NCBI RefSeq assembly: GCF_022458985.1
Contig: NC_061774.1
Location: forward strand, 11,522,616 to 11,586,615
Direction: 5' to 3'
Length of the DNA stretch: 64,000 nucleotides
From: Mugil cephalus
Taxonomy: Eukaryota; Chordata; Actinopteri; Mugiliformes; Mugilidae
A program made the translations under genes and the position numbers. Below the pieces are notes generated by a model. The model did no database searches. It was not told the DNA's origin and saw only the letters and a program-made list of their open reading frames with translations. This document shows positions 15,312 through 60,230 of the stretch, piece by piece (position 1 is the stretch's first letter; each line of letters starts with the position of its first letter).

Positions 15312-16707
15312 ATGACTCAAAGGAACTTGCTGCAACCCTCCGCAGTAGCTCTGTTTCTTCTCCTGCCCTGGTTCGGTGAACTGGTCGCTGGAGAGATCAG
15401 CAGGGACTTCAACAACTGCCTTGATTTCTTCTACAACAGATTTCCACCATCAGGCACAAGAGCGGTAGGATACCAGCCAATATGCCAGCGCTACAAAAAC
15501 CAGTACCGCTTTGCCAGCCTGTATCACCGCACGCATCGCACCCCATTGTACTCTGCGTACGTACTAAGTCCTGCAGACGGCAAACGGCCCAATGCCACTT
15601 GGATGTATGAACCACAGGTAAGAAAGAAAATACGCTGTGATCAAGAGAAGTCGGTGACGCTGTGGTATTTGTCAATATGACGTCTTAAGATATAGATTGT
15701 TGGGAAACTTGTGTCTCGATAAGGGCAAAGCAAGTAATACCGTAGAAGTAGCAGTGTAGTATATCCTTCCCTTTACTTCATTTAAGTTATATATGTATTC
15801 CTATCTCGGCTAATGTGTCACTACATTTTAGATACATGCATATTAACACAATATATATATATATATATAATATAAATATGCAGTCATACATAGTGTGATG
15901 TATGACTGCATATTTATATTATGATGCTAGAATGATGCTCGAAAATTGCGTTCAATTTTGAGTGAATCAGAGTGGCAAAATAAAAGCTCACCACAAACTT
16001 TCAGTTCAGACTGAATGAAGAACCGATCTGCAGCAGCTTTTTCTTTCTTTCTTTTTAAGCTCCTCGGCTGAGACTCGGTTTCTCTTTCTGTCCTTCAGTT
16101 GGCGTTTTCCGGTGCTCACCCTGAGATGGAGCCTTTCCACATCCCCGTTGACCAGAATGTGATTGAAAGCCAGGCGGTGCTGCAGGACTACAGGAACTCC
16201 AGCTTCACCAAGGGCCATCTCAATCCCAGCATGCACCAGAAGACAGCAGAAGACAGAGAAGCCACGTTCACCCTGACAAACATTGTCCCTCAAAAGGCAG
16301 GCTCCAACTCTGGCCCCTGGAGCAGACTGGAGAATGACGTGTTGAAAAAATTCACCACTTATTGCGAAGGCCCAATGTACGTGATCACAGGGGCCATGCC
16401 TTACAAGTCAAACATACCACTGATTAATAACAGGGTGTCTGTCCCCGAGTACATGTGGTCCGCCTACTGCTGCCCATCATACAAATCAGGCCTTCCTCAG
16501 TCTGTGCAGCAGTTTTTTCCCACGTATGCTGCAGTGGGAAGAAATGACCCGAACAGCGGAGAAGAGATTGTGCCAGTAAACGTGAGGGCAAAGGCAGCGG
16601 TGCGGGGCTATGATGTGAGGCGGATGTCTTTAGAGACTCTGGAGGGCATACTGGTGGACAGGCTGGCCATGCCCATCAGTCTGTTTGATGGAGGCTGTCG
16701 GGAATAA
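15312..16707 (+). CDS. ENDOD1-like secreted nuclease, copy A
   Basis: Two coding exons, 15312-15617 (ends ...WMYEPQ before GTAAGA) and 16099-16707 (after CTTCAG), give 304 aa. This is a DNA/RNA non-specific endonuclease of the ENDOD1 type. It has a signal peptide (residues 1-27, leucine-rich core), conserved cysteines (CLDFFYNRFPP, ICQRY) and the active-site segment 'FTKGHLNPS', where His is the expected general base. Next come 'TFTLTNIVPQ...GPW', with the Asn/Gln likely to help hold Mg2+, and 'MYVITGAMPYK' and 'VPEYMWSAYCCPS'. The family's classical DRGH motif is TKGH here. It ends at about 300 aa, well short of mammalian ENDOD1 (about 500 aa) with its hydrophobic C-terminal part, so it is probably secreted. 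AATAAA at 16702-16707 overlaps the stop; a second lies at 16952. This is the most divergent copy. Confidence 0.92.
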
Positions 16708-17140
16708 AGGGCCCTGTTAAAAATCAATTGTTAATTTCTTTGCAGCCTTCTTACAGCCTGACCAGACCTTCTCTCTGTCCTCATTTACTCTCTGTCGTTT
16801 TAGTAACTGAATCAAGGTTGGAGTCACTGGGACTTGATGATTGTCTCATGATGGTGCAAAATGATTTTCCCTTGTGATTGATTTTGTAAAATAGCCATAT
16901 TGCCTTTTTCTTACTGAAATCTTGTAACATGTATTAGCGTCAATACTTTTCAATAAAACAAGACAAAAAAGTGGATGAAAAATCTTTTGAAATGTAAATG
17001 TTATTTTTAGGTTAATAAAACAAGACGAAAACAACTGATTAATGCTAAATGTTTTATTTCTCACTGACAGTTCCGACAAGGAACAACTAATATATCAGTT
17101 GATAACAACTTCATGATATAGAATTGTTTTTCGTCATCAT
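16708..17140. other. 3' flank of gene A
   Basis: Untranslated and intergenic DNA with a polyadenylation signal AATAAA at 16952-16957. No further gene was seen. Confidence 0.5.
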
Positions 17141-17144
17141 CAGT

Positions 17145-17610
17145 CATTAGATGATCAGGAAAGCACCTGGGCCCGATGAGAAGTCCATCCTCCTTCAACT
17201 GCTCAAAAATCACCACAGATCATCAAGGAAACTCCCGGGCCTCTGTCCTGACATCTGTGTGAAGGCCTCTCTGAGTAATAACCCCCGACCACATCTTCCC
17301 TCCCTTCTTTTCTTCCTCTTGTGTGCGCACAAGTCATCTGGGACGGTGACACGCATGCGCCGCCCTTCTGGTCAACAGCTGGTGCAGTCAGAGCACCATA
17401 CAGGAGAAGCCTTAGTTTTTAACATAAACACATTGTGATTTACTATCAATATTACTATTAATAATATTACATTAATATTGTATATGTTTACACTGTTTTT
17501 GCAGGGACATTCTCATTTCATAGCAGTCTTGTGTCTTATGTCCATTGCATAATGAGTCAAATTCCTTGTCTGTGTTTGCATATTAGGACAATAAACTGGT
17601 TCTCATTAAA
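17145..17610 (+). mobile_element. LINE deletion derivative with 3' tail
   Basis: It starts with 'RKAPGPD' (the RT finger motif KAAGPD), loses most of the RT, then shows 'RRPSGQQ' (LLPSGRR-like end). It closes with 'caaattccttgtctgtgtttgcat...aggacaataaactggttct', the tail wording of CR1/Rex1-type fish LINEs. Internal deletion only; not functional. Confidence 0.5.
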
Positions 17611-17654
17611 ACATTTTGAACACATATACAGTTGAAGACTAGTTGTTATATTAA

Positions 17655-17790
17655 CAGAATAACTTATATTTTCTCAGTTGCTCCCTGGGCCTCTGCTCCA
17701 GCTGTACAAGCTACTGTGTGAATGAAGGGATGGGTCAAATGCAGAGAAGGTGTTTCCCTGTGAGGGATCAATAAAGGAATAACAATAATT
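17655..17790 (+). mobile_element. SINE/LINE tail fragment
   Basis: 'gggatgggtcaaatgcagag' followed by 'tttccctgtgagggatcaataaagg' is a very common 3' tail of fish retroposons, and an ATT-rich end follows. The 5' head is not recognisable. Confidence 0.45.
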
Positions 17791-18779: not shown

Positions 18780-19437
18780 ATGATGACTCCAAGGAAGATG
18801 CTGCCATTCACCGCTGGAGCTCTGCTTCTTCTTTTACCCTGGTTTGGTGGCCTGACCTCTGGAGAGCTCAGCAAAGCAAAATTTACCATGTGCCAAAAGT
18901 TCTTCTACAACAAAACTCCACCGAAGGGTTTTGGAACCAGACGTCAGGCGATATGCCAGCGCTACGAAAATCAATACCGCTTTGCAACCCTTTATGATCC
19001 TCAGAACCGTATAGCACTGTACTCTGCATACCTGATGAGCTCCTCAGATGAACACAGTGAACAAAACCCAACCTGGATGTATGAACCACAGGTAAGATAT
19101 AAGCAATCATTACTTCACTGAAACTGAGGACCTGTTGTATTATTGTTAAGAATATACAAGTAGGAATGTTCACACAGAGGTGCTTGTATTTTGTAAATTT
19201 TTTGTCTTAATAATTAAGTTACAATGTAATATTGTTTCTTATTCATAAACTGTTGTTTTGGGAAACAAATGAGCAAATTAGTTGTGCATGCAAATCAAAT
19301 AATTTAAAGGAAGTTTACATGATGGTACAGTGTTTTAACACTGGTGCTCAGAAGTATCAGTCATGATATGCTCACATTTAACCTGGTATGTAAAATGCAT
19401 TAACATGGACAAGGTTTTTTATTTTCTCCTAAAACTT

Positions 19438-19501
<64 letters not shown>

Positions 19502-19801
19502 ATACCTTATAAGTCAGTACGTCTGCTCAATGCCCGAGTGTCTATTCCTGAGTACATATGGTCTGCTTACTGCTGCCCATCCTTCAAATCTAAACTTCCA
19601 AGCGATACGAGCACCTATTTCCCTACATATGCTGCAGTGGGAAGAAATGATCCCGACAGTGGAGAGGAGATTGTGAAAAAAGATCCCTCACCCTATGCTG
19701 TGAAGAGGATAACCTTGGTGAAACTGGAGACATTCCTGTCAAAACGTCTGAATATGCAAATTAGTCTGTTTGACAAGAACTGTCAGGTTTCCAAGTCTTA
19801 G
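18780..19801 (+). pseudogene. ENDOD1-like copy B, promoterless with a gutted exon 2
   Basis: Exon 1 (18780-19091) is open and encodes a signal peptide identical to those of C, D and E plus 'FTMCQKFFYNKTPP' and 'ICQRY', ending in a normal GTAAGA donor. The 3' part of exon 2 is also open (19,507-19,801; PYKSVRLL... to ...CQVSKS). The splice acceptor and about the first 300 nt of exon 2, including the KGH catalytic segment and the metal-site Asn, are gone. A (TA)n tract stands at the junction. Together with the missing promoter this makes it a dead copy of a D-like gene. If exon 1 were transcribed without splicing, it would encode a short secreted peptide of about 113 aa. Confidence 0.85.
19436..19497. 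repeat. (TA)n microsatellite at the deletion joint of copy B
   Basis: An alternating AT tract with two CA/GT interruptions. It sits exactly where intron and the first half of exon 2 are found in the intact paralogues. Confidence 0.9.
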
Positions 19802-20729
19802 CTCTTTGTTTAAATCAAGTTAACTTACCCACACAGACACAAAGCACAGGTTTCAACCTCAGACTAAATGTTTCATCAAGATGTCATGTGTCATGATGGC
19901 TGGGAAATAAATGCTCACAATAAATATGATACATAATGAATATTTCCTCTGTGTTGGGAGTGTGTTTTCAAATAAAGACTGAAATGGATTAAAAGCATTT
20001 TGATGGTTTGAAATGTACATTTTTTTAAATAATGTGACTGAAACAAACCTGTCCTACATCGAACACAAAATGACAAAAAACTGTCAATTTAAATTCCGTA
20101 CACTGTACATACTACATAAAGACATGATTACACACATATACTAAACTAAATCATCTACTTCATGTATATGCACTTAAAATGTATCACGTACCATTGTACT
20201 CTGTGGTTACACTGAGTACTGCAGATGATGGACAGATTTATTATCCTCAAACAGGTTTTTGACAAGTTGCAACACTTAAATTTTAAAAAACTGTAAACAC
20301 TTAGCTCTTATGTCCCATCAAGATTACATTTGCTTGTCTTGAACTCAAGTTGTGTTCTCCCAACCATTCCTAAGTATTATCCTGCTGAAAGAGGCCACTG
20401 CCGCACCCTGGGATCCATGTGCTCTGACATGTATTATATATTTGTAACCACAGGTCCATTCCTTCATGTGCACAATGAGTGTACACGTGAAGATGTAACA
20501 GCAGTTACATTAAATTAATATTTACATGCTTATTGATTTATGTTTGGTAGGTTAAATACAGATTTACATTTTTGCAGTATAGTTACAGTTAAAGTATAAA
20601 GGTGATCGAGACAGCAGAGATCCTGCCTGTGTAAGGAAAACACCTTTATCAGTATAGTTTTGGTAACAGATCATTATTAGTGTTCATTTAAGATTTTAGT
20701 TCCTTCTTAGGTATTTCATTAATTATCTA
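19802..20729 (+). repeat. Gene-flanking duplicated segment (3' flank plus 'Y' segment)
   Basis: 19,802-20,240 is nearly the same as the 3' flank of gene D (37,815-38,280), including two AATAAA signals. From 20,260 it carries the 'cctgctgaaagaggccactg' segment, seen again at 25,440, 41,740, 44,750 and 55,575. These shared flanks show that the array grew by duplication of units larger than the gene. Confidence 0.7.
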
Positions 20730-21105
20730 AGACACGATGACAATGAGAGAAAGACTAAACAAATAATGAGAAGTTAAATGCAGAAGTAAAAGTTAGCAAC
20801 ACATCACTCTCTTCACGTTGCACTTTCCAGCCTGAAATCTGCACCCTGAGCTGAACGAAGTGTATTTAACTCACAGCCGATAAATCAGTACACAGATCAT
20901 CATACTTGGCTATTTTTCCTACTTCAACTCTGAGGACAAAATGTTTGTTTTGGTCAGTGGTCATAATGGGACGGCTGATTGGGGTATAAACCCCTTCTTT
21001 ATTTATTTAAAGTCATATTCATTTCTCTATATACTTGATGAAGCCTTCCGGAGTACGTGCGCCAGTTTTTTCCCTGCAGTGGGAATAAATGACCCCACCT
21101 GAATC
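20730..21105 (+). pseudogene. Orphan promoter and exon-2 scrap of a lost ENDOD1-like gene (relic 1)
   Basis: 'cacgttgcactttccag...gctgaacgaagtgtatttaactc' (20,815-20,872) matches the promoters of C-F, TATA-like box included, but no signal-peptide exon follows. At 21,046-21,095 a scrap of exon 2 remains ('cagttttttccctgcagtgg', compare FFPTYAAVGRNDP). Most of the coding region has been deleted. Relics at 28,905 and 47,740 share the same decayed layout. Confidence 0.6.
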
Positions 21106-21189
21106 CACCATCATTGTTTGCGGTGAAAACAGACCAGTGGATCATGTAGTTAATATGAAATGACAAAAGAGTCTGAAATGTCCAGATTC

Positions 21190-25480: not shown

Positions 25481-26440
25481 GTTCCCACATCTTGGCTCCA
25501 TGGGCTCCGACATAAATTATATATTTGTAACTACAGATCCCATTCCTTCATGTGTACTATATGTATATAGTAGTTATATTAAATTAATATTTACACGCTT
25601 ATTGGTTTATGTTTTAGTGGGTTAAATACAGATTTACATTTTTGCAGTATAGTTACATTTAAAGTACAAAGGTGATTGAGACAGCAAAGATCCCACCTGT
25701 GTAAGAAAAAGACCTTTATCAGTATAGTTTTGGTATTTCCTTTGTTACATTAAACATATTTTGGTTTATTTATCTTATTTGTTTAAATCTCCATTAAGTG
25801 TCAGTACTCACCTCCATCTGGATGTCTCCTTAGGCTGATCACCTGCTGAATTTTAAAAAAATTTCCACCAAATCTATTTTTCTTCATATATCAACCCCCA
25901 TATATTGATGAAGTGCAATGATAATGAATTTATCAGTGGTATTCACTTGATGAGTAATTATGACCAGTCAGTCATGGCTCTTGAACATAAATTGTAAAAT
26001 ACAAAAAAAATGGCATCTGCTGAAATGAGATGCTGAGAAGTTGGTTTAGTTGCTCTTTTTAGTGCTTTTATTAAAAGCCGTCAGCTACTAAATAGGAAAT
26101 CGATAAAGATTCCCCTGTCTGACGAAGTCTACCAATATACTGTATTGATGTATATTTTATAAGGGCCACCAGGTACAAATGTTTCAGTGTGAAAAAATAA
26201 AATAATGCATTGAATGCATTGTGACCTTTACATTTACTGTACATTGACTGATTATTGATCCCAATAACAATGGCAGTGAGATACATTTCTTTTTTATGCT
26301 GACTGACAGTGTTTAATAATTATTTCCTTTTATCGCCACAGTAAAAATTGTGCGAGCTCACATATAGATATCTAAAACACGATGACAACAAGAGAAAGAC
26401 TGTAACCAAAACAGCACGTTCAAATGCAGAAGTGAAAATG
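25481..26440 (+). other. Upstream flank of gene C (Y segment and conserved upstream block)
   Basis: 25,540-26,290 is shared with the region before gene E (44,870-45,660). The part from about 26,210 recurs before D (35,990) and F (58,520). No gene was seen. The conserved upstream block may hold distal promoter elements. Confidence 0.55.
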
Positions 26441-26625: not shown

Positions 26626-27943
26626 ATGATGACTCCAAGGAAGATGCTGCCATTCACCGCTGGAGCTCTGCTTCTTCTTTTACCCTGGTTTGGTGGCCTG
26701 ACCTCTGGAGAGCTCAGCGACAAAAAATTTACCATGTGCCAAAAGTTCTTCTACAAGAGAACTCCACCAAGGGGTTTTGGAACCGGACATAAGGCGATAT
26801 GCCAGCGCTACAAAAATAAATACCGCTTTGCAACCCTTTATGATCGTCAGAAACGTACAGCACTGTTCTCTGCATACCTGATGAGCTCCTCAAATGAACC
26901 GAGGCCAGATGGAACTTGGATGTATGAACCACAGGTAAGATATAAGCAATCATAACTTCACTGAAACTGAATATCTATTGAACTGTTGTTGAGAATATCC
27001 AAGTAGGAATGTTCACGTATAGTTGCTTGTATTTTTTGCTTGTATTAAGTTATAGTTACGTATAGTTTCCTATGTAATGTAATGCAAAAATAGCTAAATA
27101 TGAAGCATCCTTACAAATACTATACAGCAATAAAGGTGTGTTATCTCGTAAACTGTTCGGAAACTTTGGGAAACAAATCAGCAAATCAGTTGTCTGCGCA
27201 AATAGAATAATTTAATGAAACAAACACACACACACAACCACACACACACACACACTCACACACACACATTTTTATCATATGAAGAGTGAACACATTTATG
27301 AGTGTGTAATAAAGACATAATTTGTTTTTCTTTCACCATCAATAAGTTGGTGTCTAAGACAGCTGATCCTGAAATGAAGCCTTTTCCAAATCCTGTTGGC
27401 CAAAACATGAAAAACAGCCAGGCTGTGCCTGAAGACTACACGAATAATAACTACACCAAGGGTCATCTCGCTCCATCCCAGCACCTGAACACAGAGGACG
27501 ACCGTACATCCTCCTTCACTCTGACAAACATTGTTCCACAGAAAGCGGAGTCCAACAACGGGCCCTGGAGTGATCTGGAGACAGAGGTTTTGAGAAGATT
27601 CAATACCTACTGCAATGGACAGATGTATGTGCTCACTGGCACCATACCTTATAAGTCAAAATGCCTGCTCAAGGGACGAGTGTCTATTCCCGAGTACATA
27701 TGGTCTGCTTACTGCTGCCCATCCTTCAAATCTGACCTTCCAAACGATACGAGAATCTTTTTCCCTACACATGGTGCATGGGGAAGAAATGGTCCTTGCC
27801 CCGACAACAACACTGTGGAAGAAAATCCCTCACCGTATGCTGTGAGGAGGGTGTCTTTGCCGAGACTGCAGAGATTCCTGAGAGAAAGGCTGGGCATGAC
27901 AGGCAGCCTGTTTTCCGGCGACTGTCAGAGTCCCAAGCCTTAA
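26626..27943 (+). CDS. ENDOD1-like secreted nuclease, copy C
   Basis: Exons 26626-26934 and 27347-27943 encode 301 aa. Start: tandem ATGs, the first at 26,626, directly before the basic stretch 'TPRKM' and a Leu-rich signal core (LLLLLPWFGG). The mature part begins near 'SDKKFTMCQKFFYKRTPP'. Exon 2 opens 'LVSKTADPEMKPFPNPVG' and carries 'YTKGHLAPSQH' (catalytic His) and 'SFTLTNIVPQKAESNNGPW'. The intron is 412 nt with a CA repeat, and the acceptor is the weak AATAAG. Its C-terminal third differs clearly from D and E (HGAWGRNGPCPDNNTVEENP), with one extra Cys there. Secretion is inferred from the signal peptide and the absence of a membrane segment. Substrate and tissue are unknown. Confidence 0.92.
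27216..27272. repeat. (CA)n microsatellite in the intron of copy C
   Basis: A CA tract with two interruptions. A homologous, longer pure tract is in the intron of copy D, while copy E has lost it. Confidence 0.8.
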
Positions 27944-28904: not shown

Positions 28905-29295
28905 GTCTAAGGCACAATGACAATGAGAGGAAGACTAAACAAATAATGACACGTTGAAATGCAGAAGTGACAACTAGCAACATATCACTGTCTTCACGTT
29001 GCACTTCACCCTGGGGGCTCAAGTCTGTGACTAAATACACAGCTCATAAACTCACGTGAGTACACAGATTGTCTTACTTGGCCATTTCTCCTCCTTCAAG
29101 TCTGAGGACGAATGTTTGTTTGCTGTTTAGTAACTCCCACACACTGACAGGTGCCACGAAAAAGAGAAAATCAGTGTTATTCACCTCACCTTTCGGTGGT
29201 CATAATGGGAAGGCTGATAGGTTTAAACCCCTCTTATACTTATTTAAAGTCGTATTCATTCTTCTATATACTTGATGAAGCCTTTCAGGGTGTGT
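28905..29295 (+). pseudogene. Orphan ENDOD1-like promoter (relic 2)
   Basis: 'gacaatgagaggaagactaa' and 'cacgttgcacttcaccctgg' correspond to the shared promoter, but the GTATTTAACT box has been deleted and no coding exon follows. It is nearly identical to relic 3 (47,740 on), down to 'ttggccatttctcctcc' and 'tatacttgatgaagcctttc', so the two arose by duplication after the gene had died. Confidence 0.55.
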
Positions 29296-29319
29296 GTGTA
29301 TGAAAGAGTCTGAAAACCT

Positions 29320-30420
29320 CCAGACTCCACTGGAGCATGTTCAAGGATCTGTCCTCTGCTAGTCCATCACTGTCTGGTTTGGACTGATGACCAAACAGGC
29401 AGGAAACTGCACTGCCGATCCATCCCACCCTGGTCACAACCTGTTCTCACTTCTCCCCACTGGTGGGCGCTACAGACCACTGTATGACAGAGCCGTATAT
29501 TAGGCAGTTTGGCCAACGAGGGAACTGAGCTGGTCACGTGTTTTATCGGTATCATGCCAGATACATATAACCAATATTCTTCCATAGAGAAGTGGCAATA
29601 ACAGAGAATAAAAATGGATTAAAATTTGAAATATACCACAGTGCTCGGATAAAAATGGAGAAAGTCATGGGAGCAGAACATTAAAAGGAAGAACTGGATG
29701 TCAACTGATTTCTCCTTATTATGTGAGGTAAATGTTGATGTCTCTCTTTGTCCTTTGTTAAGATTTTATATAGAAAAAATAAAGTCATACCATCATTAAT
29801 GTGTACCTTGATCTCAAAAACACCCAACACCACTTTACAAATGAATGAAGTTTTAAATTAACCAAGCCTCGTGCTAGCTAGTTATCTAGACTAAAGGCTT
29901 AGAGAAATAACAGCTACGGTCATATATACTGTGAAGTTATTATGGCTAGCGTGCTAATGTTATAATGATAATACTAATCATAATAGTAATAACAGTAAGG
30001 CTTTCATATTTATCTAAAGCTCCTTGATTGAAGAGGCATTCAGGCTACAAAGCATTTTACTGGCTCATTTAAGATATTTACAGTAAGTAGATGCTGGGAT
30101 ATTTAAGTCAGGGCCTTTTACATATTGACAGACGTTGGCAATAACATTAGGCCCCATAGGGTTACACTGTAGAATCTTCTGGTGCATGAATGAAAACAAC
30201 AAAACAAAAAAAACAGCCACACAACAGTTTCTTCTCCCAGGCCACATATAATGAACAGTTATAATAAAGAAGGTTTTTACAAAATACAGTTATGTCTGAA
30301 TGAATGAATTATTTAATTAATCGGTCACTGTTTTGTGACATGTATTGCTTACACACTATGTCTACTAGAGCATATGAAGACAAAATTACATGCACATACT
30401 GAATGCAGTCTTCCACTTCA
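29320..30420 (+). mobile_element. LINE 3'-end fragment, interrupted by about 0.7 kb
   Basis: The pieces 29,320-29,478 (SLSGLD..., 'ctggtgggcgctacagacca') and 30,205-30,420 (cagccacacaacagtttctt...) are adjacent in the copies at 21,190 and 50,766. The 0.7 kb between them starts 'tgacagagccgtatatt', which is also seen at 48,320. I could not identify it. Confidence 0.5.
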
Positions 30421-36418: not shown

Positions 36419-37086
36419 ATGATGACTCCAAGGAAGATGCTGCCATTCACCGCTGGAGCTCTGCTTCTTCTTTTACCCTGGTTTGGTGGCCTGACCTCTG
36501 GAGAGCTCAGCCCGTCAAAATTTACCATGTGCCAAAAGTTCTTCTACAACAAAACTCCACCAGAGGGTTTTGGAACCGGACATCAGGCGATATGCCAGCG
36601 CTACAAAAATCAATACCGCTTTGCAACACTTTATGATCCTCAGAAACGTACAGCACTGTTCTCTGCATACCTGATGAGCTCCTCAAATAGACCGAGGCCA
36701 GAAGACACTTGGATGTATGAACCACAGGTAAGATATAAGCAATCATAACTTCACTGCAACTGAGGACCTATTGGATTATTGTTAAGAATATACAAGTAGG
36801 AATGTTCACACACTGGTGCTTGTATTTTGTAAATTCTTTGTCTTAATAATTAAGTTACAGTGTAATATTGTTTCCTATTCATAAACTCTTGTTTTCGGGA
36901 AACAAATCAGCAAATTAGTTGTTCATGCAAATTTAAATAATTTAAAGAAAGTTTACATGATGGTACAGTGTTTTAACACTGGTGCTCAGAAGTATCAGTC
37001 ATGATATGCTCACATTTAACCTGGTATGTAAAATGGATTAACATGGACAAGTCTATTTTTTTCTTTTATTATTTTCCTGCCTGTCT

Positions 37087-37149: not shown

Positions 37150-37814
37150 TTTCATCGTCTGAAGAGTAGACACATTCATGGGTGTGTAATAAAGACATAA
37201 TGTGTTTTTCTCTCACCATCAATAAGTTGGCGTCTGAGAAAGAACGGGAAATGAAGCCTTTCCCAGATCCTGTTGGCCAAAACGTGATTAAAAGCCAGGC
37301 TGTGCCTGCAGACTATGCAGACAGCCTCTACACCAAGGGTCATCTCGCTCCATCCCAGCACCTGAACACAGACGATGACCGTGCGGCCACCTTCACTCTG
37401 ACAAACATTGTTCCCCAGAGGGAGGGGTCCAACAACGGGCCCTGGGGTGATCTGGAGACAGAGGTTTTGGAAAGATTCAATACCTACTGCAATGGACAGA
37501 TGTATGTGATCACCGGCACCATACCTTATGAGCCAGTACGCCTGCTCAATAACCGAGTGTCTATTCCTGAGTACATATGGTCTGCTTACTGCTGCCCATC
37601 CTTCAGGCCTGACCCAAATGTGAAAGCCTATTTCCCTACATATGCTGCAGTGGGAAGAAATGATCCCAACAGTGGAGAGGAGATTGTGAAAAAAGATCCC
37701 TCACCCTATGCTGTGAAGGAGATGACCTTGGTGAAACTGGAGAAAATCCTGTCAGAACGTCTGAATAAGAAAATCAGTCTGTTTTACCAGAACTGTCAGG
37801 TTTCCAAGTCTTAG
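36419..37814 (+). CDS. ENDOD1-like secreted nuclease, copy D
   Basis: Exons 36419-36727 and 37227-37814 encode 298 aa. The signal peptide is identical to B, C and E; the mature part begins near 'SPSKFTMCQKFFYNKTPP'. Exon 2 opens 'LASEKEREMKPFPDPVG' and keeps 'YTKGHLAPSQH', 'TFTLTNIVPQREGSNNGPW', 'MYVITGTIPYEP', 'IPEYIWSAYCCPSF' and the full 'GRNDPNSGEEIVKKDPSPYA' segment. The 499-nt intron carries a pure (CA)n tract. AATAAA signals follow at 37,919 and 37,932. Its 3' flank is shared with B and E. All expected catalytic positions of this subfamily are present, so it is probably active. Confidence 0.93.
37090..37149. repeat. (CA)n microsatellite in the intron of copy D
   Basis: About 29 uninterrupted CA units, close to the acceptor of exon 2, so length change could alter splicing. 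Confidence 0.95.
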
Positions 37815-41145: not shown

Positions 41146-42139
41146 CCACCCTACGAGAGTAAGAGAGACGTTTTATTTATTTAGTTATTTGTATATGTGT
41201 CACCTACATAACACAAGGTTTTTATTTTTAAGGGTGCAACATATATCACGTACCGTTTTGCATATACTCACATAAAACAAACAGCAGCTTAACTTTGGCC
41301 GAGTCCTTTCACTCGTATCTGGATTCAGCAACAATGAATTCACATCTTTTATTCTGTAGTGGTGCTCATGGTGATGTGTAGAGATTGCTATGTCTTTAGA
41401 AATTTAAACAAAATGAGATATACAAGTACATGAAAACTGCGCTGATGGTGAAAACTGTCAGGGAAAACATGTGAAAGTTTGTGTTTACATTTTAGGGCGG
41501 CAACATGAGACTGTAAACAATGATGACTTTTTAGAATTAAAAGAGAAATTGTGGCCAATGTGTCACTGACAATGTGACAGTTTAACAAGCTGCAAGGACA
41601 AGTTGCAACATTTAACTTGTAAAAGACTATAAATACTTAGCTCTGATGTTCCATCAAGATTACATTTGATTTAAAGCAACTTGAAGTTGTGTTCTCCAAA
41701 CCATTCCTAAACCATTTTCCTTTACGACAGGACGTATTATCCTGCTGAAAGAGGCCACTGTCGTCAGGGAATACCGTTCCCTCATCTTGGCTCCATGTGC
41801 TCTGACATATACTATATATATGTAACCACAGGTCTTATTCTTTCATGTGTACTATATGTATATAGTAGTTATATTAAATTAATATTTAGACGCTTATTGG
41901 TTTATGTTTTAGTGGGTTAAATACAGATTTACATTTTTGCATTATAGTTACATTTAAAGTACAAAGGTGATTGAGACAGCAAAGATCCCACCTGTGTAAG
42001 AAAAAGACCTTCATCAGTATAGTTTTGGTATTTCCTTTGTTACATTAAACATATTTTGGTTTATTTATCTTATTTGTTTAAATCTCCATTCAGTGTCATT
42101 ACTCACCTCCATCTAAATGTCTCCTTAGGCTGATCACCT

Positions 42140-42245
42140 GCTTTTAAACACAAGGTTAAAACATTTATTGTATACAGCACTTTGTGCTTTCTGTATGAAA
42201 AGTGCTACACAAATAAAGTCTTATTGATTGATTGACTGAACAATG
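42140..42245 (+). mobile_element. Retroposon tail (L2/SINE type) inserted between X2 and X3
   Basis: 'tttctgtatgaaaagtgcta' followed by 'cacaaataaagtcttattga' and ATTG repeats, a typical fish L2/SINE end. The paralogous site before gene C (25,845) lacks it. Confidence 0.55.
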
Positions 42246-42465: not shown

Positions 42466-45100
42466 TGGTAAACCATGGATCAACTAATAGTTTGCTCAGC
42501 TGCGCCATTCTTCCACGTGCTTCTGTTGGTTTCACCACTGATCGATGTTATGTTGTATGGAGACGGCAAGTGCAAGTCAAACTTACAGGAAGAATAATAT
42601 TAAATGAACTGCGGCATATAAAATGAAATATCTACAGAGGATGTATAGGCTACTTTTCCATGCTTTGTTGTTGCTGGTACTGAACAGCTAATGGTACTGA
42701 ATATTAACAAGCTGGAAAATGTTTACCTACATTATCCATTGCAATATACCAAGCCTCATGCATGCTTGAAGTGGTGTAAAACAAAGCTTCATCTTGTAAC
42801 TCTGTCAAAACTAGTTTTGGCTGGAGCTAAAAACGAGCTAATATGAAGTTCACGGTCTTTCACCGGTGTGGTGTAGTGTTTGACACACCAATGGCATGTT
42901 TGACACTGAAAAGGAGCTTTTTCTTTCTAGTTTTCATTGAAACTAGTTGTGGAATAAATTTTGAAGTATTTGCAGTTAATTTCATTCTTGTGACTCTTTG
43001 TCCACAGCCTTTGACTAAGAGGTGGCCTCCCTGTTGTTACTGTACTTTCTCCTTCCACCACCACCAGGAAGATGAAGCATCCAAAAATCAGCGCCTCTGA
43101 TGCAGTTGAGAGACTTGTGGTCTTTCATAATTTAATATTTAGAATTTTTATGATAATTTGTCATGTCACTGTCTTAGCCTCATGTGCAAATGTGGGTAAA
43201 AAGTGCATGAAACAAATTACAGTCGAGTTTAGGATGTTTGAATAGTCACTTCTGTAACACTGTTTTCTCTGACTTGCTCCTGTGTCTAATGCTCATTGTC
43301 TTTGTGTTAACCACAGTCTTGCTGCAGTTTGGAAGAGCATCTTCAGAATCAGCAGAGCCAGCAGCTGTACCAAGTAGTGTTAGTAGTGTTGTAGTAGTGT
43401 TAATTTAACCCAGATTGGTGAGTTAAAGAAGGAACACTGACGTACTGTTGAATAATTAACTCTCAAATTTAACTCTGTAGAGTGTGGAGCTATATAAACC
43501 CTGAAAAACTGTTAAAATATCAGTTTTACAAAATATGGTTTTGTCTCAATTAATTATCGTTCACTGTCGGTGTAATGTGTCTGCCTGTCTATCTGTCTGT
43601 CTGACAGTCCAGCACATAATAGCAGGGTGTAAGATGCTAGCTGGGTCAGTGTACATGGAGAGGCACAACTAAGTGGCTGGGATAGTGTACAGGAACATCT
43701 GTACCCAGTATGGAATAGAAGTACCCAGGTCCCAATGGGCCACAACACAGAAGGTGGTTGAGGACAACAGGGCCAAGGTTCTGTGGGACTTCAGCTTCCA
43801 GACTGGTCGGGGCTAACCAACCGGACATAGTGGTGGTGGACAAAGAGCAGAAGAAGGTGGTGGTGATAGATGTGGTGATACCAGCTGACACCAACATCAG
43901 AAATAAGAAACACAAAAAGCTTGAGAAGTACAAAGGGCTGGAAGAGCAGCTGGAATGGATGTGGAAGGTTAACTCTTGTGTGGTGATAGGAGCACTTGGG
44001 GCAGTGACCCCCAAACTGGGAGATTGGCTCCAACAGATCCCAGGAGCAGCACCTGAAGCTCAGTCCAGCAAAGTGCCGTCCTAGGAACAGCTAAGATACT
44101 TTGCAGGACCCTCAAACTCCCAGGCCTCTGGTAGAGGACCCAGGCTTGAGGATGACACCGATACCACCCTACGAGAGTAAGAGAGACGCTTTATTTATTT
44201 AGTTATTTGTGTCACCTACATAACACAAGGTTTTTATTTTTAAGGGTGCAACATATATCACGTACCGTTTTGCATATACTCCCATAAAACAAACGGCAGC
44301 TTAACTTTGGCAGAGACCTTTCACTCATATCTGGATTCAGCAACAATGAATTCACATCTTTTATTCTGTAGTGGTGCTCATGGTGATGTGTAGAGATTGC
44401 TATGTCTTTAGAGATTTAAACAAAATGAGATATACAAGTACATGAAAACTGCACTGATGGTGAAAACTGTCAGGGAAAACATGTGAAAGTTTGTGTTTAC
44501 ATTTTAGGGCGGCAACATGAGACTGTAAACAATGATGACTTTTTAGAATTAAAAGGGAAATTGTGGCCAATGTGTCACTGACAATGTGACAGTTTAACAA
44601 GCTGCAAGGACAAGTTGCAACATTTAACTTGTGAAAAACTATAACTACTTAGCTCTGATGTTCCATCAAGATTACATTTGATTTAAAGCAACTTGAAGTT
44701 GTGTTCTCCAAACCATTCCTAAACCATTTTCCTTTACGACAGGACGTATTATCCTGCTGAAAGAGGCCACTGTCGTCAGGGAATACCGTTCCCACATCTT
44801 GGCTCCATGTGCTCTGACATATACTATATATATGTAACCACAGGTCTCGTTCTTTCATGTGTACTATATGTATATAGTCGTTACATTAAATTAATATTTA
44901 CACACTTATTGGTTTATGTTTTAGTGAGTTAAATACAGATTTACATTTTTGCAGTATAGTAACATTTAAAGTACAAAGGTGATTGAGACAGCAAAGATAA
45001 CACCTGTGAAAGAAAAAGACCTTCATCAGTATAGTTTTGGTATTTCCTTTGTTACATGAAACATATTTTGGTTTATTTATCTTATTTGTTTAAATCTCCA
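42466..45100. repeat. Duplicated block X, copy X3 (no hAT insertion)
   Basis: Reads straight through 'agaataatattaaatgaact' at 42,591-42,610 where X1 and X2 carry hAT-like ends, with no footprint. The remaining landmarks match X2. Confidence 0.85.
43603..44150 (+). mobile_element. RLE-type LINE 3' end, in X3
   Basis: Same tail as in X2 (PDIVVVDKEQKKVVVIDVVI); the frame diverges after 'PGAAPEA'. Confidence 0.75.
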
Positions 45101-45790
45101 TTTAGTGTCAGTGCTCACCTCCATCTGGATGTCTCCTTAGGCTGATCACCTGCTGAATTTTAAAAAAATTTCCACCAAATCTATTTTTCTTCATATATCA
45201 ACCCCCATATATTGATGAAGTGCAATGATAATGAATTTATCTGTGGTATTCCCTTGATGAGTTATTATGACCAGTCAGTCATGGTTCTTGGACATAAATT
45301 CTAAAATGCAAAAAAAATGGCATCTGCTGAAATGAGATGCTGAGAAGTTGGTTTAGTTGCTCTCTTTAGTGCTTTTATAAAAGCCGTCAGCTACTAAATA
45401 GGAAATCCATAAAGATTCCCCTGTCCGACAAAATCAAGCAATATATTGTATTGATGTATATTATATATTATAAGGGCCACCAGGAACAAATGTTTCAGTG
45501 TGAATAAAATAAAATAATGCATTGAATGCATTGTGACCTTTACATTTACTGTACAATTGACTGATTATTGATCCCAATAACAATGGCAGTGAGATACATT
45601 TCTTTTTTATGCTGACTGACAGTGTTTAAAAATTATTTCCTTTTATCTCCACAGTAAAATTGTGCGAGTCATGTTGTAAAGCTCACATACATGCCTTCAT
45701 TCCCTGTGGTACTTCATTAGATATCTAAAACATGATGACAACAAGAGAAAGACTAGAACCAAAACAGCACGTTCAAATGCAGAAGTGAAA
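45101..45790 (+). other. Conserved upstream block of gene E
   Basis: Matches the region before gene C (25,800-26,440) closely. No gene was seen. Confidence 0.55.
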
Positions 45791-45964: not shown

Positions 45965-47064
45965 ATGATGACTCCAAGGAAGATGCTGCCATTCACCGCT
46001 GGAGCTCTGCTTCTTCTTTTACCCTGGTTTGGTGGCCTGACCTCTGGAGAGCTCAGCCCGTCAAAATTTACCATGTGCCAAAAGTTCTTCTACAACAAAA
46101 CTCCACCAGAGGGTTTTGGAACAGGATGTCAGGCGATATGCCAGCGCTACAAAAATAAATACCGCTTTGCAACCCTTTATGATCCTCAGAACCGTACAGC
46201 ACTGTTCTCTGCATACCTGATGAGCTCCTCAGATGAACCGAGGCCAGAAGATGAAACTTGGATGTATGAACCACAGGTAAGATATAAGCAATCATAACTT
46301 CACTGAAACTGAGGACCTATTGTATTATTGTTAAGAATATCCAAGTAGGAATGTTCACACACAGGTGCTTGTATTTTGTAAAATAAATAAATAAAATTCT
46401 TGGCAGTCTGTCTGAAACATAACACACTTTTTTATCGTCTGAAGAGTAGACACATTCATGGGTGTGTAATAAAGACATAATGTGTTTTTCTCTCACCATC
46501 AATAAGTTGGCGTCTGAGAAAGAACGGGAAATGAAGCCTTTTCCAGATCCTGTTGGCCAAAAGGTGATAGACAGCCAGGCTGTGCTTGCAGACTACACGA
46601 ATAGTGGCTACACCAAGGGTCATCTCGCTCCATCCCAGCACCTGAACACAGAGGACGACCTTAAATCCTCCTTCACTCTGACAAACATTGTTCCACAGAA
46701 AGCGGAGTCCAACAACGGGCCCTGGAGTAATCTGGAGACAGAGGTTTTGAGAAGATTCAAGAACTACTGCAATGGACAGATGTATGTGATCACTGGCACC
46801 ATACCTTATAAGTCAGTACGTCTGCTCAATAACCGAGTGTCAATTCCTGAGTACATATGGTCTGCTTACTGCTGCCCATCCTTCAGGCCTGACCCAAATG
46901 TGAAAGGCTTTTTCCCTACATATGCTGCAGTGGGAAGAAATGATCCCAACACAGACTATGCTGTGGAGAGGATGTCCTTGGAGAGACTGGAGAAAGTCCT
47001 GTTAAAACGTCTGAATAAGAAAATCAGTCTGTTTTACCAGAACTGTCAGGTTTCCAAGTCTTAG
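45965..47064 (+). CDS. ENDOD1-like secreted nuclease, copy E
   Basis: Exons 45965-46276 and 46507-47064 encode 289 aa. The signal peptide is identical to B-D. It keeps 'YTKGHLAPSQH', 'SFTLTNIVPQKAESNNGPW', 'MYVITGTIPYKS' and 'IPEYIWSAYCCPSF'. Two oddities stand out. It has an extra Cys in 'GFGTGCQAICQRY', where the others have His or Arg. It also has a clean in-frame loss of about ten residues after 'GRNDPN' (the SGEEIVKKDPSP loop of D and F). The 230-nt intron is the shortest of the family because the CA-rich part is gone. Whether the missing loop affects activity is unknown; it lies away from the KGH segment in sequence. Confidence 0.92.
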
Positions 47065-47520: not shown

Positions 47521-47739
47521 TAGTTTTTGTATTTTCTTTGTTAAATTAAACATATTTTGGTCGTTGTGTTTAAGTCTTCATTCAGTGACAGCACTCAGCT
47601 CCTTCTGGTGGGATAAAGAGTGAGGCTGATCACCAGCTTTTCAACTCGGTGGTGAAACCATTTTTACAAGACGGGGGCAATAGAACATTATTAGTGTTGA
47701 TTTATGTTTTTAGTTCATTCGTGGGTATTTCATTAGATA

Positions 47740-48145
47740 CATAAGGCGCAATGACAATGAGAGGAAGACTAAACAAATAACGACATGTTCAAATGCAGAA
47801 GTGACAACTAGCAACATATCACTGTCTTCACGTTGCACTTCACCCTGGAGGCTCAAGTCTGTGACTAAATACACAGCTCATAAACTCACGTGAGTACACA
47901 GATTATCTTACTTGGCCATTTCTCCTCCTTCAACTCTGTGGACAAATGTTTGTTTACTGTTTAATATCTCCCACACACTGACAGGTGCCACGAAAAAGAG
48001 AAAATCAGTGTTATTCACCTCACCTTTCGGTAGTTATAATGGGATGGCTGATAGGTGTAAACCCCTCTTTTATTTATTTAAAGTCATATTCATTCTTCTA
48101 TATACTTGATGAAGCCTTTCAGGGGGTGTGCACCAGTTTTTCCCA
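47740..48145 (+). pseudogene. Orphan ENDOD1-like promoter (relic 3)
   Basis: Near copy of relic 2: 'gcaatgacaatgagaggaag', 'cacgttgcacttcaccctgg', no TATA-like box and no coding exon. At 48,113-48,165 a longer exon-2 scrap (ccagtttttcccacagtg) and 'gaaaacagaccggtggatga' remain, as in relic 1. Confidence 0.55.
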
Positions 48146-48189
48146 CAGTGAAAACAGACCGGTGGATGATGTAGTTAGTATGAAATGAC

Positions 48190-48325
48190 AAAACAGTCTC
48201 AAACCTCCAGACCCCACTGGAGTATGTTCAAGGATCTGTCCTCTGCTCATCCATCCCACCCTGCTCACAACATGTTCCCACTTCTCCCCACTGGTGGGCG
48301 CTAAAGACCACTTTATGACAGAGCC
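48190..48325 (+). mobile_element. LINE 3'-end scrap
   Basis: 'ctccccactggtgggcgcta' (LLPTGGR) and its left flank match the copies at 21,190 and 29,320. The last part is cut where 'tgacagagccgtatatt' begins. Confidence 0.5.
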
Positions 48326-48389
48326 GTATATTTCACAGTTTGGCCAACTAGGGAATAGACCGTCCCGCTATGCTGATTGGTCAATACTT

Positions 48390-49527
48390 TGATTGTAGTT
48401 TTGTCATAGACAATGTACTGAGATAAGCAAAGATTTAGATTATTGTATGTATTCCAAGAACAAGTAGAGCAAATAAGTTTTGATGTTGGTCTATGAAGAA
48501 GTAGCACTCCATTTAGTTGGATCAATTAATGTGTGTATTTATACCAAGGTCTCCTCAAAACTGTAAATGAAAACTTTACAGTTAGGCTCATATGTGTTTG
48601 AAGACGGACACAATTTTTCTTATTTCTAACGGTTTACCTAAAACTATTCTATGTGTGGTCAATCAGCCAATGTAGTTGTGGAAAACCATTTTCTGGATAG
48701 ATGAAACCAAGATCAACCTGTACCAGAATGATAGGAATAAAAATGCATGTGGTCCTAGAATGACATCATCTTTTTTCTCCTGGAATAGCTCATTTTCTGA
48801 AACGTACCTTGCATTTGCTAAACACAGTGGAGGCAGAGTGTATGCATGGCTTCCAGTGGTGCTGGAATATCACTAGTATCGGTACTGTAGCTAAAAACAG
48901 ATGCAGCCTTTTACTCCATATATAACAATTGTCCAAACATTTCCTCCAATGTGGATGTGGATACCCTCAGAGGCTCACATGATACCATAGAAATTCTATA
49001 TAACCAATGAGATTAAAAATAAAAAAAATACAGTAGGTGTACACGAAGAAAAATCTTCAAATATATCCAACAAATCTAAATTTCTTCAAATATTTAAACA
49101 CAAATACATTTTGTACAGAGACTAATTCATCTTTAATGAGGTCATTTTACCACTGTATACATTCAGTTGCTATTTGGACCCAAATGAAAGTTTAAAAACC
49201 GTTTAACTTCAGAAAAGTAAATATAATATTATCCTCCTGAGAACCAAGGTAAAAAAGTGTCTTACAATTTCTGTATTTTTGTGATTTCCTATCTATTTGT
49301 GCCCAAAAAAAACACCTTACAATTTTAATATTTTTAAATTTATTTATTTATTTATTTTTTAATTTCACAGCATGTCCACTGTAGAGGATAACAGGACGAT
49401 ATCCGTGTGAAAATAGAAAAGAATTTAGAAAATGAGTAAAAAGGAGCTGATTATATCTTTAGAGTGATATTCACCCAAAAACAATAAAATTCTGTATCAC
49501 TCTTATGTTACTTGTTGCTTACAAGGA
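48390..49527 (+). repeat. Duplicated segment Z, copy 2 (partner 33,490-34,617)
   Basis: Same order of landmarks as copy 1, including the Tc1 transposase scrap 'FWIDETKINLYQNDRNKNAC' (48,688-48,747). It ends at the same 'acttgttgcttacaaggaca' point, after which a piggyBac fragment and not a LINE follows. Confidence 0.75.
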
Positions 49528-50765
49528 CACTGGTCACTGCCAGCTCAGGCCTCGTCTGGACCCTCGTCACTAAAGCCCCTCTCCCTTCTTTTCTCAGCTG
49601 CTTATCTTCTGGCAGCTGGCATTGCTTTGGAACCCTGTTCTTCATGATGGTTCCAGTTGCTGGAAGACCCTTTGAGAGCAAAGCCTCCACGAGGTCGATC
49701 GTTGTGAAATATCGATCAAAGAACACATAAGTTCCTGTAGGAACTGACGCGACCATTCGCAAGACTGCTGCAGCTCCAACTCCCAGCCTTTGGCCCCTGA
49801 ATGTGTTCTTGCCCTGATACACCTTGAAATCCAGGACCAGGCCATTTGGGGAGGCAAGCACAAAAACCTTTAGGCCAGTAGGGTTTGGCTTTCCTGGCAC
49901 ATACTGTCTGACTGGGCAGCGGCCTATGAAAGAGATGATTTGCTAATCAGTGCACACCTTGGAAGGCTGAGACAACCTTGCCTCACATGGTCAAGCAAAG
50001 GTCTGACTCTCCAAAGAATGTCTGATTTCTTTGCCTCTTCAGTTACATCCAGGTCATTGACAATCTGTCACACACGCGGTGTGGTCATGTCTTATTTTGG
50101 TATGTTTTGTCTCGTGATTTCCTGTTTTATTTTGGAAAGTAACTCTCCTCTCGTTTCAGGTCACTTGCCCTTCCTCATGTGTCACCAGTCTGATTGTCTT
50201 CCCTGATTCCTGATTGTGTTTAAATAGTCTGCGTCTCCCTTGTCTTTTGCCAGTGTGTTCGTCATTTTTGTCGTTTCCACCCGTGCCTTCGTTCCATGCC
50301 ACAGTCTCTCATGCCGGTCTGCCTTGAGTTTCCTCGTAAGAGTGATTTTTTGTTGTAACTTTCTAGCATAGTTCTAGTGATTAGGTTCTGTTTAGGTTTT
50401 TGCTGTTTTTGTTTCCTCCCTCTGGAGCGTTTTGTGTTTTAGTCCTTCTTGTTTTTTTCTCCCGTTTAGAGCGCCTTTTGTTTGGTTACCTTTTAGCTGT
50501 GAGTTTCTTTGTTTTCCTCCTTAGGAGTGATTTTACTTTAGTAAGGTTTCTTAGCCATCAGGAGCTGGTTTCATAGCCCTTTTATTTTCACTCTGTTCGA
50601 GTTCCGCTTCCCATTTATTCTGTATAAATAAGTCTCCTTTGCCGCCTACCCTCTGCGTTTGAGTCCTGCCTTGAACCCGGGCCTGACACAATCTTGAGTG
50701 AGCTCCTCAGCTTGTAGAACCTATCCCTTGTCATTTTCCTGTTAATAATTGGCATAAAAAATGTG
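49528..50765 (-). mobile_element. piggyBac-type DNA transposon fragment
   Basis: Leftward reading, in order: 'KMTRDRFYKLRSSLKIV' (50,690-50,750), '[14 protein letters not shown]' (from 50,060 down), '[19 protein letters not shown]', and '[18 protein letters not shown]' with a conserved catalytic-type Asp. The last 390 nt are an open frame of 130 codons. This is the core of a DDE_Tnp_1_7 transposase; the N-terminus, the C-terminus and both inverted repeats are missing. An LTR sits inside it. Confidence 0.85.
50066..50688. mobile_element. Solo LTR of an LTR retrotransposon (Ty3/gypsy-like), fossil
   Basis: A 623-bp unit beginning TGTCA and ending TGACA. It is flanked by the exact 5-bp target duplication CAATC (50,061-50,065 and 50,689-50,693) and inserted inside the piggyBac fragment, whose coding wording continues on the other side. 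No internal region is present. The family assignment rests on the TG...CA ends, the 5-bp duplication and the general wording. The perfect duplication suggests a fairly recent insertion. Confidence 0.8.
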
Positions 50766-57610: not shown

Positions 57611-58510
57611 TGGTGACATGATTAATGTGGTTCTGTAGTGAGAGGGTGGAATCAAGGAGCAAGAAGCAGTCTCAGTCTCAGAAATGCTGAACCGGAAAGC
57701 AGCAGTTCCTCAAATCTTCTGTTCAGTTTAGAAAGTTGAGATGAGATGTAGATACCAGCGGGCAACGGCGGGTTTCCTGGCAGCAACATGAAGTCCTGAA
57801 CACCCTCTACAACAGCAGCAGTAGCATGCATGGCCGCCACTGGTGCAGGCTTGAGGTACACTATGCAGAATACCACAACACTAATAAACTTATTGTTTGT
57901 TCCCATACATAATTTATATTGTCACCAATTAGGTGACAATATAGTGTCATAGTATACTCAATACTCACTCACAACTTGACGTAAAAATATTTTCCGCCAC
58001 ACACAGTCTCCCTCTCTCCCAGTTAGCGAGGATGAGGCTAAAAAAATGCCATTGCTATGATTTACAATAATGGCTGGCTGAAACAGCTCCAAATACGCTA
58101 ACTCTTCAAAGTTGTACAAGGAAACACAAAGGTAAAACCTCCGGTTTTAGTTTCAGTAACAACTGTAACTGTAACAATTTTAAATGGCTTACATCTAGCT
58201 CCTCATGTTGACTAGATGGGAGATTTTACCATTGACTCTGATGGGAAGAGCAGAAGCTGTAAGAATGAATATACTGTCAAGATTGTTGTTTTTGTTTTGG
58301 TCATTGCCTATTGTGATTTTAGGTGCTTTTCTAAAAAAAAAGAAAAGATAAGGCTCAGAAGAGACATCAGACAGGTAACGAGTGGATCAGTAGATCACTG
58401 TACATTTGGTCAGTAGTACGAAAGAAGCTGAAATTGTCCAATTTTGTATTCAGGGCTACTAACATAGCAAAGAACCCAGACTTTATACCATCTACCATCT
58501 ACTCCTTTCC
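57611..58510. other. Intergenic DNA before the gene F unit
   Basis: No gene recognised; short open frames only. Confidence 0.5.
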
Positions 58511-58514
58511 TGGC

Positions 58515-58870
58515 TGAATACACTGTGACCTTTTACATTTACTGTACATTAGACTGATTGATCCCAATAACAATGGCAGAATGGGATACATTGTGTTTTA
58601 TGTTGACTGACATTGTTAGTGTTTGAATTTTATTTTCTTTAATCTGCACAGTAAAATTGTGTGAGTCATGTTGTAAAGCTCACATACGTGCCTTTTTTCT
58701 CTGTGGTATTTAGATATCTAAAGCACAATGACGAGGAGAGAAAGACTGAACACACATTGGCACGTTCAAATGCAGAAGTGAAAATTACATCATTGTATTC
58801 GTGTTAACTTCCCACCCAGAAATCAGCACGTCAGGGGCTCACCGAAGAGTATTTAACTGAGGGTCAAGTC
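58515..58870 (+). promoter_or_regulatory. Upstream block and promoter of ENDOD1-like gene F
   Basis: 58,520-58,760 shares 'gattgatcccaataacaatg' and 'cacagtaaaattgtgtgagt' with the C, D and E upstream blocks. 'caggggctcaccgaagagta' then leads to GTATTTAACT at 58,849-58,858. The CCAAT box is diverged (agaaatcag). Confidence 0.6.
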
Positions 58871-58952
58871 TGTGACTGAATATACAGCCGATGAATTCTC
58901 TTGAGTACACAGATCATCACAGTAGGAGCAACTAACTGCATTGTTGTGCAAG

Positions 58953-60230
58953 ATGTGGCGATTCACAGCTGGGGCTCTGCTTGTTCTTCTACCCTGGTTT
59001 GGTGGCCTGGCTTCTGGAGAAATCTGTGTAAAATTCAAAGGATGCCGTAATTTCTTCTATAAAGAAACTCCACCAGTGGGTTTTACTGGAGTCCCGATAT
59101 GTCAGCGCTACAAAGGCAATTATCACTTTGCCACCATGTATGATCGTCAGCATCGTACAGCAAGGTACTCTGCTTATTTACTCACTCCTGCAGATGGTAA
59201 CCGGCCTTCTAACTCTTGGATGTATGAACCACAGGTAAGACAGAAAAATCTGTTATGAAAGTGTTTTGTCACATTTTGTAATCATTATTCATTTATATTT
59301 TACCATGTAATGTAATGATATTGATTAGCTAAATAAGAATGCAAGACTACACCAATTAGTTATTTTGGGAAATAAATCAGCAAATTAGATGAGCATGCTA
59401 TCAAAATATCTCAATGTGTTAGAGAGTTTGAACACTTTGCCTCTGAATCAATAGATGTATATCCTTAAAATTTTGCTCTGCAGACTTTTACATGGGACGT
59501 GTGAATCAGTTCTTTCTCTGTTTGAAATCTAATACTGTAAATAGACCTTTCGTCTGAAAGAGGAGTGGACACACCACATTTTTGAATAAGTAATAAAGAC
59601 ATAATGTGTTTGTCTCTCACCACCAATAAGTTGGCGTCTAATGGAGGTGATCGAGAAATGAAGGAATTCCCACCAAATTCCATCCCCCAAGATGTGATTA
59701 GAAGCCAGGCTGTGCTTGAAGACTACACGGGTGGTAACTACACGAAAGGTCATCTTGCTCCGTCCCAGCACATGGGGACAAGCGATGACCGTGCGGCCAC
59801 CTTCACTCTGACCAACATTGTTCCACAAACAAACTTTTCCAACAACGGACCCTGGAGTGATCTGGAGAAAAGGGTTTTGCAAAGATTCAGGCAATACTGC
59901 ACAGGGAAGATGTATGTGATCACCGGCACCATACCTTATAAGCCAGTACGCCTGCTCAAGGGACGAGTGTCTATTCCTGAGTACATATGGTCTGCTTACT
60001 GCTGCCCATCCTTCAAATCTAAACTTCCAAACGATACGAGCTTTTTCCCTACATATGCTGCAGTGGGAAGAAATGATCCCGACAGTGGAGAGGAGATTGT
60101 GGAAAAAGATCCCTCACCCTATGCTGTGAAGGAGATGTCTTTAGCAAACCTGGAGAACATCCTGTGGCAGAATTTAAAAAAAAAAAAATTAAACCTGTTC
60201 AAAGGGCAGTGTAAACAAGGCAAGCCTTAG
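58953..60230 (+). CDS. ENDOD1-like secreted nuclease, copy F
   Basis: Exons 58953-59234 and 59631-60230 encode 293 aa. The ATG in 'MWRFTAGALLVLLPWFGGLA' was chosen because it starts a compact signal peptide; the longer MTPRKM leader of B-E is absent. The mature part begins 'SGEICVKFKGCRNFFYKETP'. Exon 2 has 'YTKGHLAPSQHMGT', 'TFTLTNIVPQTNFSNNGPW', 'MYVITGTIPYKPVRLL', 'IPEYIWSAYCCPSFKSKLPN' and 'GEEIVEKDPSPYAVKEMSLA'. The last codons include a run of about 13 A's (60,176-60,188, read as Lys), a slippage-prone spot eleven residues before the tail. Polyadenylation signals are at 60,326 and 60,408. It is the outermost copy and faces the zinc-finger gene tail to tail. Confidence 0.92.

Follow-up and report, generated by a model that had tools for sequence, protein, structure and literature searches.

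A tandem array of small ENDOD1-like nuclease genes, five open and one dead, in Mugil cephalus

Human ENDOD1 is a protein of 500 amino acids that carries a signal peptide (residues 1–22), a nuclease domain (residues 49–257), and three C-terminal transmembrane motifs, and it has been linked to cGAS-STING signaling and DNA repair (PMC9126970). Here we describe an array of six ENDOD1-like gene copies, arranged in tandem on the plus strand between positions 15,312 and 60,230 of a 64,000-nucleotide stretch of Mugil cephalus DNA (contig NC_061774.1), referred to throughout as the window. Many fish genomes bear several genes named endonuclease domain-containing 1 protein-like and, to our knowledge, little has been established about what ENDOD1-like nucleases cut, and where. 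The kind of gene is already known; the new detail is a local array with fast-changing young copies. Like ENDOD1, the predicted products of the five open copies combine an N-terminal leader with one Endonuclease_NS-type domain (a likeness of layout), but they stop at 289–304 amino acids with no later hydrophobic segment, whereas the human protein continues into its transmembrane motifs. Because this C-terminal transmembrane part is absent, the array products are members of the Endonuclease_NS family that are ENDOD1-like, not ENDOD1, and match by layout only its first part.

Other members of the family resemble the array products in their core. Two secreted bacterial enzymes, NucA (which we take structures 2o3b and 1zm8 to represent) and Serratia nuclease (presumably 1ql0 and 1g8t), match from the KGH motif to beyond the conserved glutamate. 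In place of the KGH of the array, however, 2o3b and 1zm8 have RGH, and the array genes are eukaryotic two-exon genes whose products hold six invariant cysteines. EXOG and EndoG also match in sequence over the KGH-to-Glu core, but they are mitochondrial by name, whereas the array products have a hydrophobic secretory-type leader and the invariant cysteines.

With moderate confidence, we favor the interpretation that this locus is a tandem array shaped by gene birth and death, whose small secreted products belong to Endonuclease_NS, have a His-Asn-Glu active site, and are akin to the nuclease part of ENDOD1. A preliminary description of this DNA had claimed six copies on a single strand, sharing a two-exon layout and an exon that ends at its donor site in WMYEPQ. 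A scan for the coding sequence of WMYEPQ with GT directly after it, which tolerated two mismatches and for which 0.07 matches were expected in shuffles, bears this out with zero-mismatch sites at 15600, 19074, 26917, 36710, 46259, and 59217, all on the plus strand. A seventh match at 38243, with two mismatches, was rejected as an extra copy by tblastn. The five intact proteins matched only six loci in the window (tblastn, E up to 0.01), and the array looks complete within it. GT-AG splicing in phase 0 yields the five open genes that had been described, with introns of 481, 412, 499, 230, and 396 bases in copies 1, 3, 4, 5, and 6, respectively. All five exon joins are in frame, and an AG acceptor precedes the TTGG with which exon 2 starts in each. 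The exons are as follows.

Copy 1, exon 1 (leader to WMYEPQ): 15312–15617, plus strand; open frame, donor GTAAGA after 15617
Copy 1, exon 2 (KGH nuclease part, stop): 16099–16707, plus strand; protein of 304 amino acids; acceptor CAG before 16099; PF01223 E 3.1e-22 for exon 2 alone
Copy 2, exon 1, open: 18780–19091, plus strand
Copy 2, exon 2 remnant, pseudogene: 19502–19801, plus strand; without the KGH, Asn, and Glu motifs; preceded by an AT-repeat tract at about 19437–19497
Copy 3, exon 1: 26626–26934, plus strand
Copy 3, exon 2: 27347–27943, plus strand; protein of 301 amino acids; PF01223 E 1.3e-21 (open reading frame (ORF) 27302–27940)
Copy 4, exon 1: 36419–36727, plus strand
Copy 4, exon 2: 37227–37814, plus strand; protein of 298 amino acids; PF01223 E 4.3e-22 (ORF 37170–37811)
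Copy 5, exon 1: 45965–46276, plus strand
Copy 5, exon 2: 46507–47064, plus strand; protein of 289 amino acids; PF01223 E 3.7e-25 (ORF 46450–47061)
Copy 6, exon 1: 58953–59234, plus strand
Copy 6, exon 2: 59631–60230, plus strand; protein of 293 amino acids; PF01223 E 3.8e-24 (ORF 59586–60227)

The observation made in the preliminary description is therefore confirmed in part: the array, its open genes, and their architecture stand, but the KGH segment assigned to all six copies occurs in five and is missing from copy 2.

Membership in the Endonuclease_NS family is secure. The Pfam profile PF01223 matches all five spliced proteins (best E 5.3e-28), and the exon 2 ORFs alone score 77.7–89.3 bits against a curated cut-off of 23 in all five open copies; exon 1 of copy 1 alone gave no Pfam match. 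The nearest solved structures by sequence are 2o3b/1zm8, labeled 'Nuclease' (3e-11), CG8862, presumably of Drosophila (8e-8), EXOG (2e-7), EndoG (7e-6), and the extracellular nuclease 1ql0/1g8t (3e-5). These profile matches and solved relatives support the nuclease assignment with which the locus was introduced. The displayed alignments place the histidine of KGH, the asparagine of LTNIVPQ, and the glutamate of GPWxxLE on the conserved core, and all three are invariant in the open copies, as is the upstream motif RP..WMYEPQ. With positions taken from the alignment, we assume that the histidine is catalytic and that the asparagine and glutamate bind metal. Scans of viral_contigs and genome_contigs, which contain viral, bacterial, and archaeal sequence, with the alignment of the five proteins hit 75 and 37 pattern stretches, and tblastn identified no relative among them. 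An AlphaFold model built from the second exons of the five open copies (mean predicted local distance difference test score 46, predicted template modeling score 0.46) was too poor to be used in judging the beta-beta-alpha-metal fold.

The leaders of the five open proteins reach hydropathies of 1.67–1.73 in 19-residue windows, compared with maxima of 0.23–1.06 from residue 35 onward, and by this measure none of the five has a hydrophobic segment beyond the leader. This agrees with the earlier statement that the proteins end near 290–304 residues without a hydrophobic C-terminal part. Six cysteine columns are invariant across the same proteins. These features suit a secreted protein. The predicted proteins are small and leader-bearing, and both secretion and catalysis are likely; most likely they are metal-dependent secreted nucleases acting at host-microbe surfaces. 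In the mechanism we propose, the N-terminal leader would guide each protein into the secretory pathway, and disulfides among the shared cysteines would probably stabilize it. DNA and/or RNA would then be cut outside the cell or in vesicles; the TKGH histidine would act as the general base, and a metal ion would be held by the asparagine in LTNIVPQ together with the glutamate in GPWxxLE. The interpretation first offered for the array, a set of extracellular nucleases, is thus partly supported, in its nuclease family and its small leader-bearing architecture, and action on extracellular nucleic acid is a prediction.

Protein identities divide the array into two age groups. Copy 1 is 56–62% identical to the other open copies and copy 6 is 58–68% identical, while copies 3, 4, and 5 are 73–87% identical to each other; copy 2 is about 93–94% identical to copy 4 over two long matching stretches. 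Judged from these sequences, the older copies 1 and 6 bracket a younger sub-array of copies 2–5. The young units have repeat DNA in common at their flanks, and the regions upstream of copies 3 and 5 are 94–95% alike over 0.8–0.9 kb. This upstream repeat may have mediated unequal duplications, which would have produced copies 2–5 from a unit with repeat DNA at its flanks. The repeat occupies 25493–26360 at copy 3 and 44800–45671 at copy 5, and a third, shorter copy, 95–98% alike, lies between genes 4 and 5 at 41788–42142.

Copy 2 (18780–19801) is a pseudogene, because it has lost the KGH segment and, upstream, most of the region that the units share. Its exon 1 is open, but the first part of exon 2 is gone, with homology restarting at 19502 after the AT-repeat tract, and just about 87 bases remain of the upstream region common to copies 3–5. 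Neither piece of copy 2 gave a Pfam match. The exon 2 remnant at 19502–19739 is 91% identical to 59931–60165 in copy 6, whereas the first exons of these two copies are only 76% identical, and because of this difference the likeness in exon 2 is probably the product of gene conversion. Up to three further units appear as relics.

Probable relic unit 1: 20710–21097, plus strand; decayed upstream region (20710–20899), then, in the order expected of a gene, an exon 2 scrap (21043–21097)
Possible relic unit 2: 28905–29069, plus strand; decayed upstream region, matched by blastn to the upstream regions of copies 4 and 6
Possible relic unit 3: 47724–47907, plus strand; decayed upstream region, matched by blastn to the upstream regions of copies 4 and 6

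In blastn against the five gene stretches, relic 1 matches the upstream region of copy 4 (E 5e-34) and exon 2 of copy 1 (E 6e-8); the exon 2 scrap gives E 1e-6 against the whole window. We read relic 1 as probably a dead former gene copy. Relics 2 and 3 are possibly further dead copies, but they could instead be a dispersed repeat, since no coding remnant was found at either by blastn within the window. A wider stretch at relic 3 (47742–48355) is 84% identical to 28908–29524 at relic 2. Taken together, the relics suggest gene birth and death in the array.

The young copies have changed quickly outside their leaders. Copies 2, 3, 4, and 5 agree in every one of their first 93 coding bases, whereas over the whole protein the rates of nonsynonymous (dN) and synonymous (dS) change are 0.174 and 0.139 for copies 3 and 4, and 0.143 and 0.085 for copies 3 and 5. 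Codon models, fitted with a small implementation of our own and not with PAML, give a mean dN/dS ratio (omega) of 1.66 for copies 3, 4, and 5 (p = 0.022 against 1). On the six-copy tree, recent branches have an omega of 1.60–1.66 and deep branches 0.40, and on two trees the recent value differs from 1 (p = 0.006 and 0.011). A comparison that needs no codon model, but leans on an upstream region that is possibly constrained or converted, sets protein-altering change per site against pooled upstream and intron change, and finds 0.146 versus 0.051 for copies 3 and 5 (p = 2e-8) and 0.173 versus 0.113 for copies 3 and 4 (p = 0.002).

Tests of individual sites point in the same direction when silent rates are held constant. 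For six copies, the plain M1a/M2a comparison gives twice the log-likelihood difference (2ΔlnL) as 53.6 with one tree and 54.7 with another; for three copies it gives 35.5, whereas 25 null simulations of the three-copy case reached at most 9.7. The signal survived masking of columns near indels or of columns 240–282, and the same test on copies 1, 4, and 6 alone gives 6.8 (p = 0.033). We rejected the overwhelming strength of these plain tests because the models assume constant silent rates. With two classes of silent rate, in a model uncalibrated by simulation, 2ΔlnL falls to 6.8–8.0 for three copies (p = 0.032, 0.018, and 0.033 in three column sets) and to 13.4 for six copies on one tree (p = 0.0013), with omega above 1 still favored in both. 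In our reading the case for diversifying selection, acting in addition to gene conversion, is a moderate one, and copy 3 supplies most of it.

Publications on other fish offer a clue to function, although they are tied to the array by gene name only. The name endonuclease domain-containing 1 protein, or protein-like, is used in fish transcriptomes, and three of five such reports describe a response to a virus, a bacterium, or a viral mimic (PMC10706053, PMC11659141, PMC3534563, PMC8633542, PMC8117508). In cod spleen, a probe annotated as endonuclease domain-containing 1 rose 9.9- to 14.2-fold under poly(I:C) (PMC3534563), endod1 was induced by Aeromonas salmonicida in head kidney and liver of turbot in both families studied (PMC11659141), and for sea bass challenged with nodavirus an endonuclease domain-containing 1 gene is given a value of 1.91 (PMC10706053). 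An immune role for the array is plausible, given the fast change in the young copies and the published induction of same-named fish genes.

Several observations weigh against an arms race, an immune role, or catalysis of the ordinary kind, and they bear on three other explanations. The array could consist of ordinary digestive or housekeeping secreted nucleases that expanded neutrally in copy number, under relaxed constraint and gene conversion, a possibility we consider real if doubtful. Most of the plain site-model signal vanishes once silent rates vary, so much of it may be due to mosaic gene conversion; the gene has diverged in patches along its length, and in the three-copy sets the fitted null places all sites at an omega of 1. 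Copies 4 and 5 show no excess over silent sites (dN 0.072, dS 0.094) or over pooled non-coding change (0.076 versus 0.066, p = 0.27). Pairwise Fisher tests of dN above dS over the whole protein are weak (p = 0.18, 0.03, and 0.86 for copies 3–4, 3–5, and 4–5), and against introns alone the excess, although in the same direction in all three pairs, is weak in two of them (p = 0.07, 0.11, and 0.017 in the same order). One dead copy and up to three relics also suit a neutral history, as does the regulatory sequence: no pattern for the interferon regulatory factor element, the gamma-activated sequence, or NF-kB occurs within 600 bases upstream of any of the six copies, and the single relaxed GAAANNGAA match lies upstream of the dead copy 2. 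In salmon fed olive extract endod1 went down (-1.86; PMC8633542). On the other hand, neutral expansion does not readily account for a mean omega above 1, for copy 3 pairs that exceed their own pooled non-coding divergence, for five copies that are still open with invariant motifs, or for same-named fish genes that react to infection or a viral mimic.

The active site raises a different possibility. All five open copies have TKGH where aligned relatives carry arginine before GH (ARGH in 2o3b/1zm8, SRGH in EXOG, DRGH in CG8862), the alanine before RGH in the 2o3b and 1zm8 chains being, we assume, engineered. In ungapped register all five also have leucine four residues after the glutamate, where 2o3b/1zm8 and CG8862 have arginine and EXOG is aligned with a gap. 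Because of these two replacements, nuclease activity may be altered; the arginine of x-R-G-H is not a requirement for membership in the PF01223 profile. The proteins might then bind nucleic acid without cutting it, for example as extracellular sensors or scavengers, but we judge this very unlikely, given that histidine, asparagine, and glutamate are retained in all five, that lysine for arginine is a mild change, and that a one-residue gap lets an arginine of copy 5 align with the arginine of 2o3b. An assembly or annotation artefact, in which the copies would be haplotypes of one locus or genes spliced otherwise than modeled, is barely credible, and nothing was found in its favor. The open copies are 56–87% identical in protein and 66–93% identical in coding DNA, thus differing by 7–34% in the latter, which disposes of the suggestion that they are assembly duplicates of one gene. 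Similarity between units is broken and partial, the window contains zero N, and the five exon joins are all open with their AG acceptors before the common TTGG.

Within the birth-and-death array of secreted nucleases that we favor, the mature parts of the duplicated copies would have moved apart under anything from relaxed to positive selection, with no change in leader or catalytic motifs, a pattern that would be expected with ever-changing substrates or antagonists such as microbial nucleic acids or microbial inhibitors. A bolder version, which we hold to be rather unlikely, casts the products as fast-diversifying secreted nuclease effectors with a modified TKGH site: leader and catalytic residues would be frozen, and the mature surfaces would be engaged in an arms race against microbial nucleic acids or against nuclease inhibitors. 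A compact array of short, probably secreted proteins, in which the mature part changes at an accelerated rate and a dead copy serves as an internal control, would allow a test of the idea that extracellular nucleases serve fish as inducible antimicrobial or anti-DNA-web effectors. Among the matches listed in a literature search none dealt with a tandem ENDOD1-like array or with selection within the family, although most subscription papers lay outside that search, so absence from print is not implied.

The array lies between genes of other kinds. To its left, on the minus strand, is a TRIM-type gene at 4893–11059, with an ORF for RING and B-box domains at 10262–11059 and a PRY-SPRY ORF at 4893–5480; TRIM proteins are often products of immune genes. 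To its right, directly downstream of copy 6, is a C2H2 zinc-finger gene at 60860–61975, also on the minus strand. Rfam and tRNA scans of the window gave no matches. A fragment of a DDE_Tnp_1_7 transposase, which we take to be of piggyBac type, lies on the minus strand at 49508–49942. A minus-strand ORF at 55791–56384 matches the Pfam model ALKBH8_N (E 1.2e-16), and because this model, as we understand it, also catches the ends of reverse transcriptases from fish long interspersed nuclear elements, the ORF is probably a retroelement piece.

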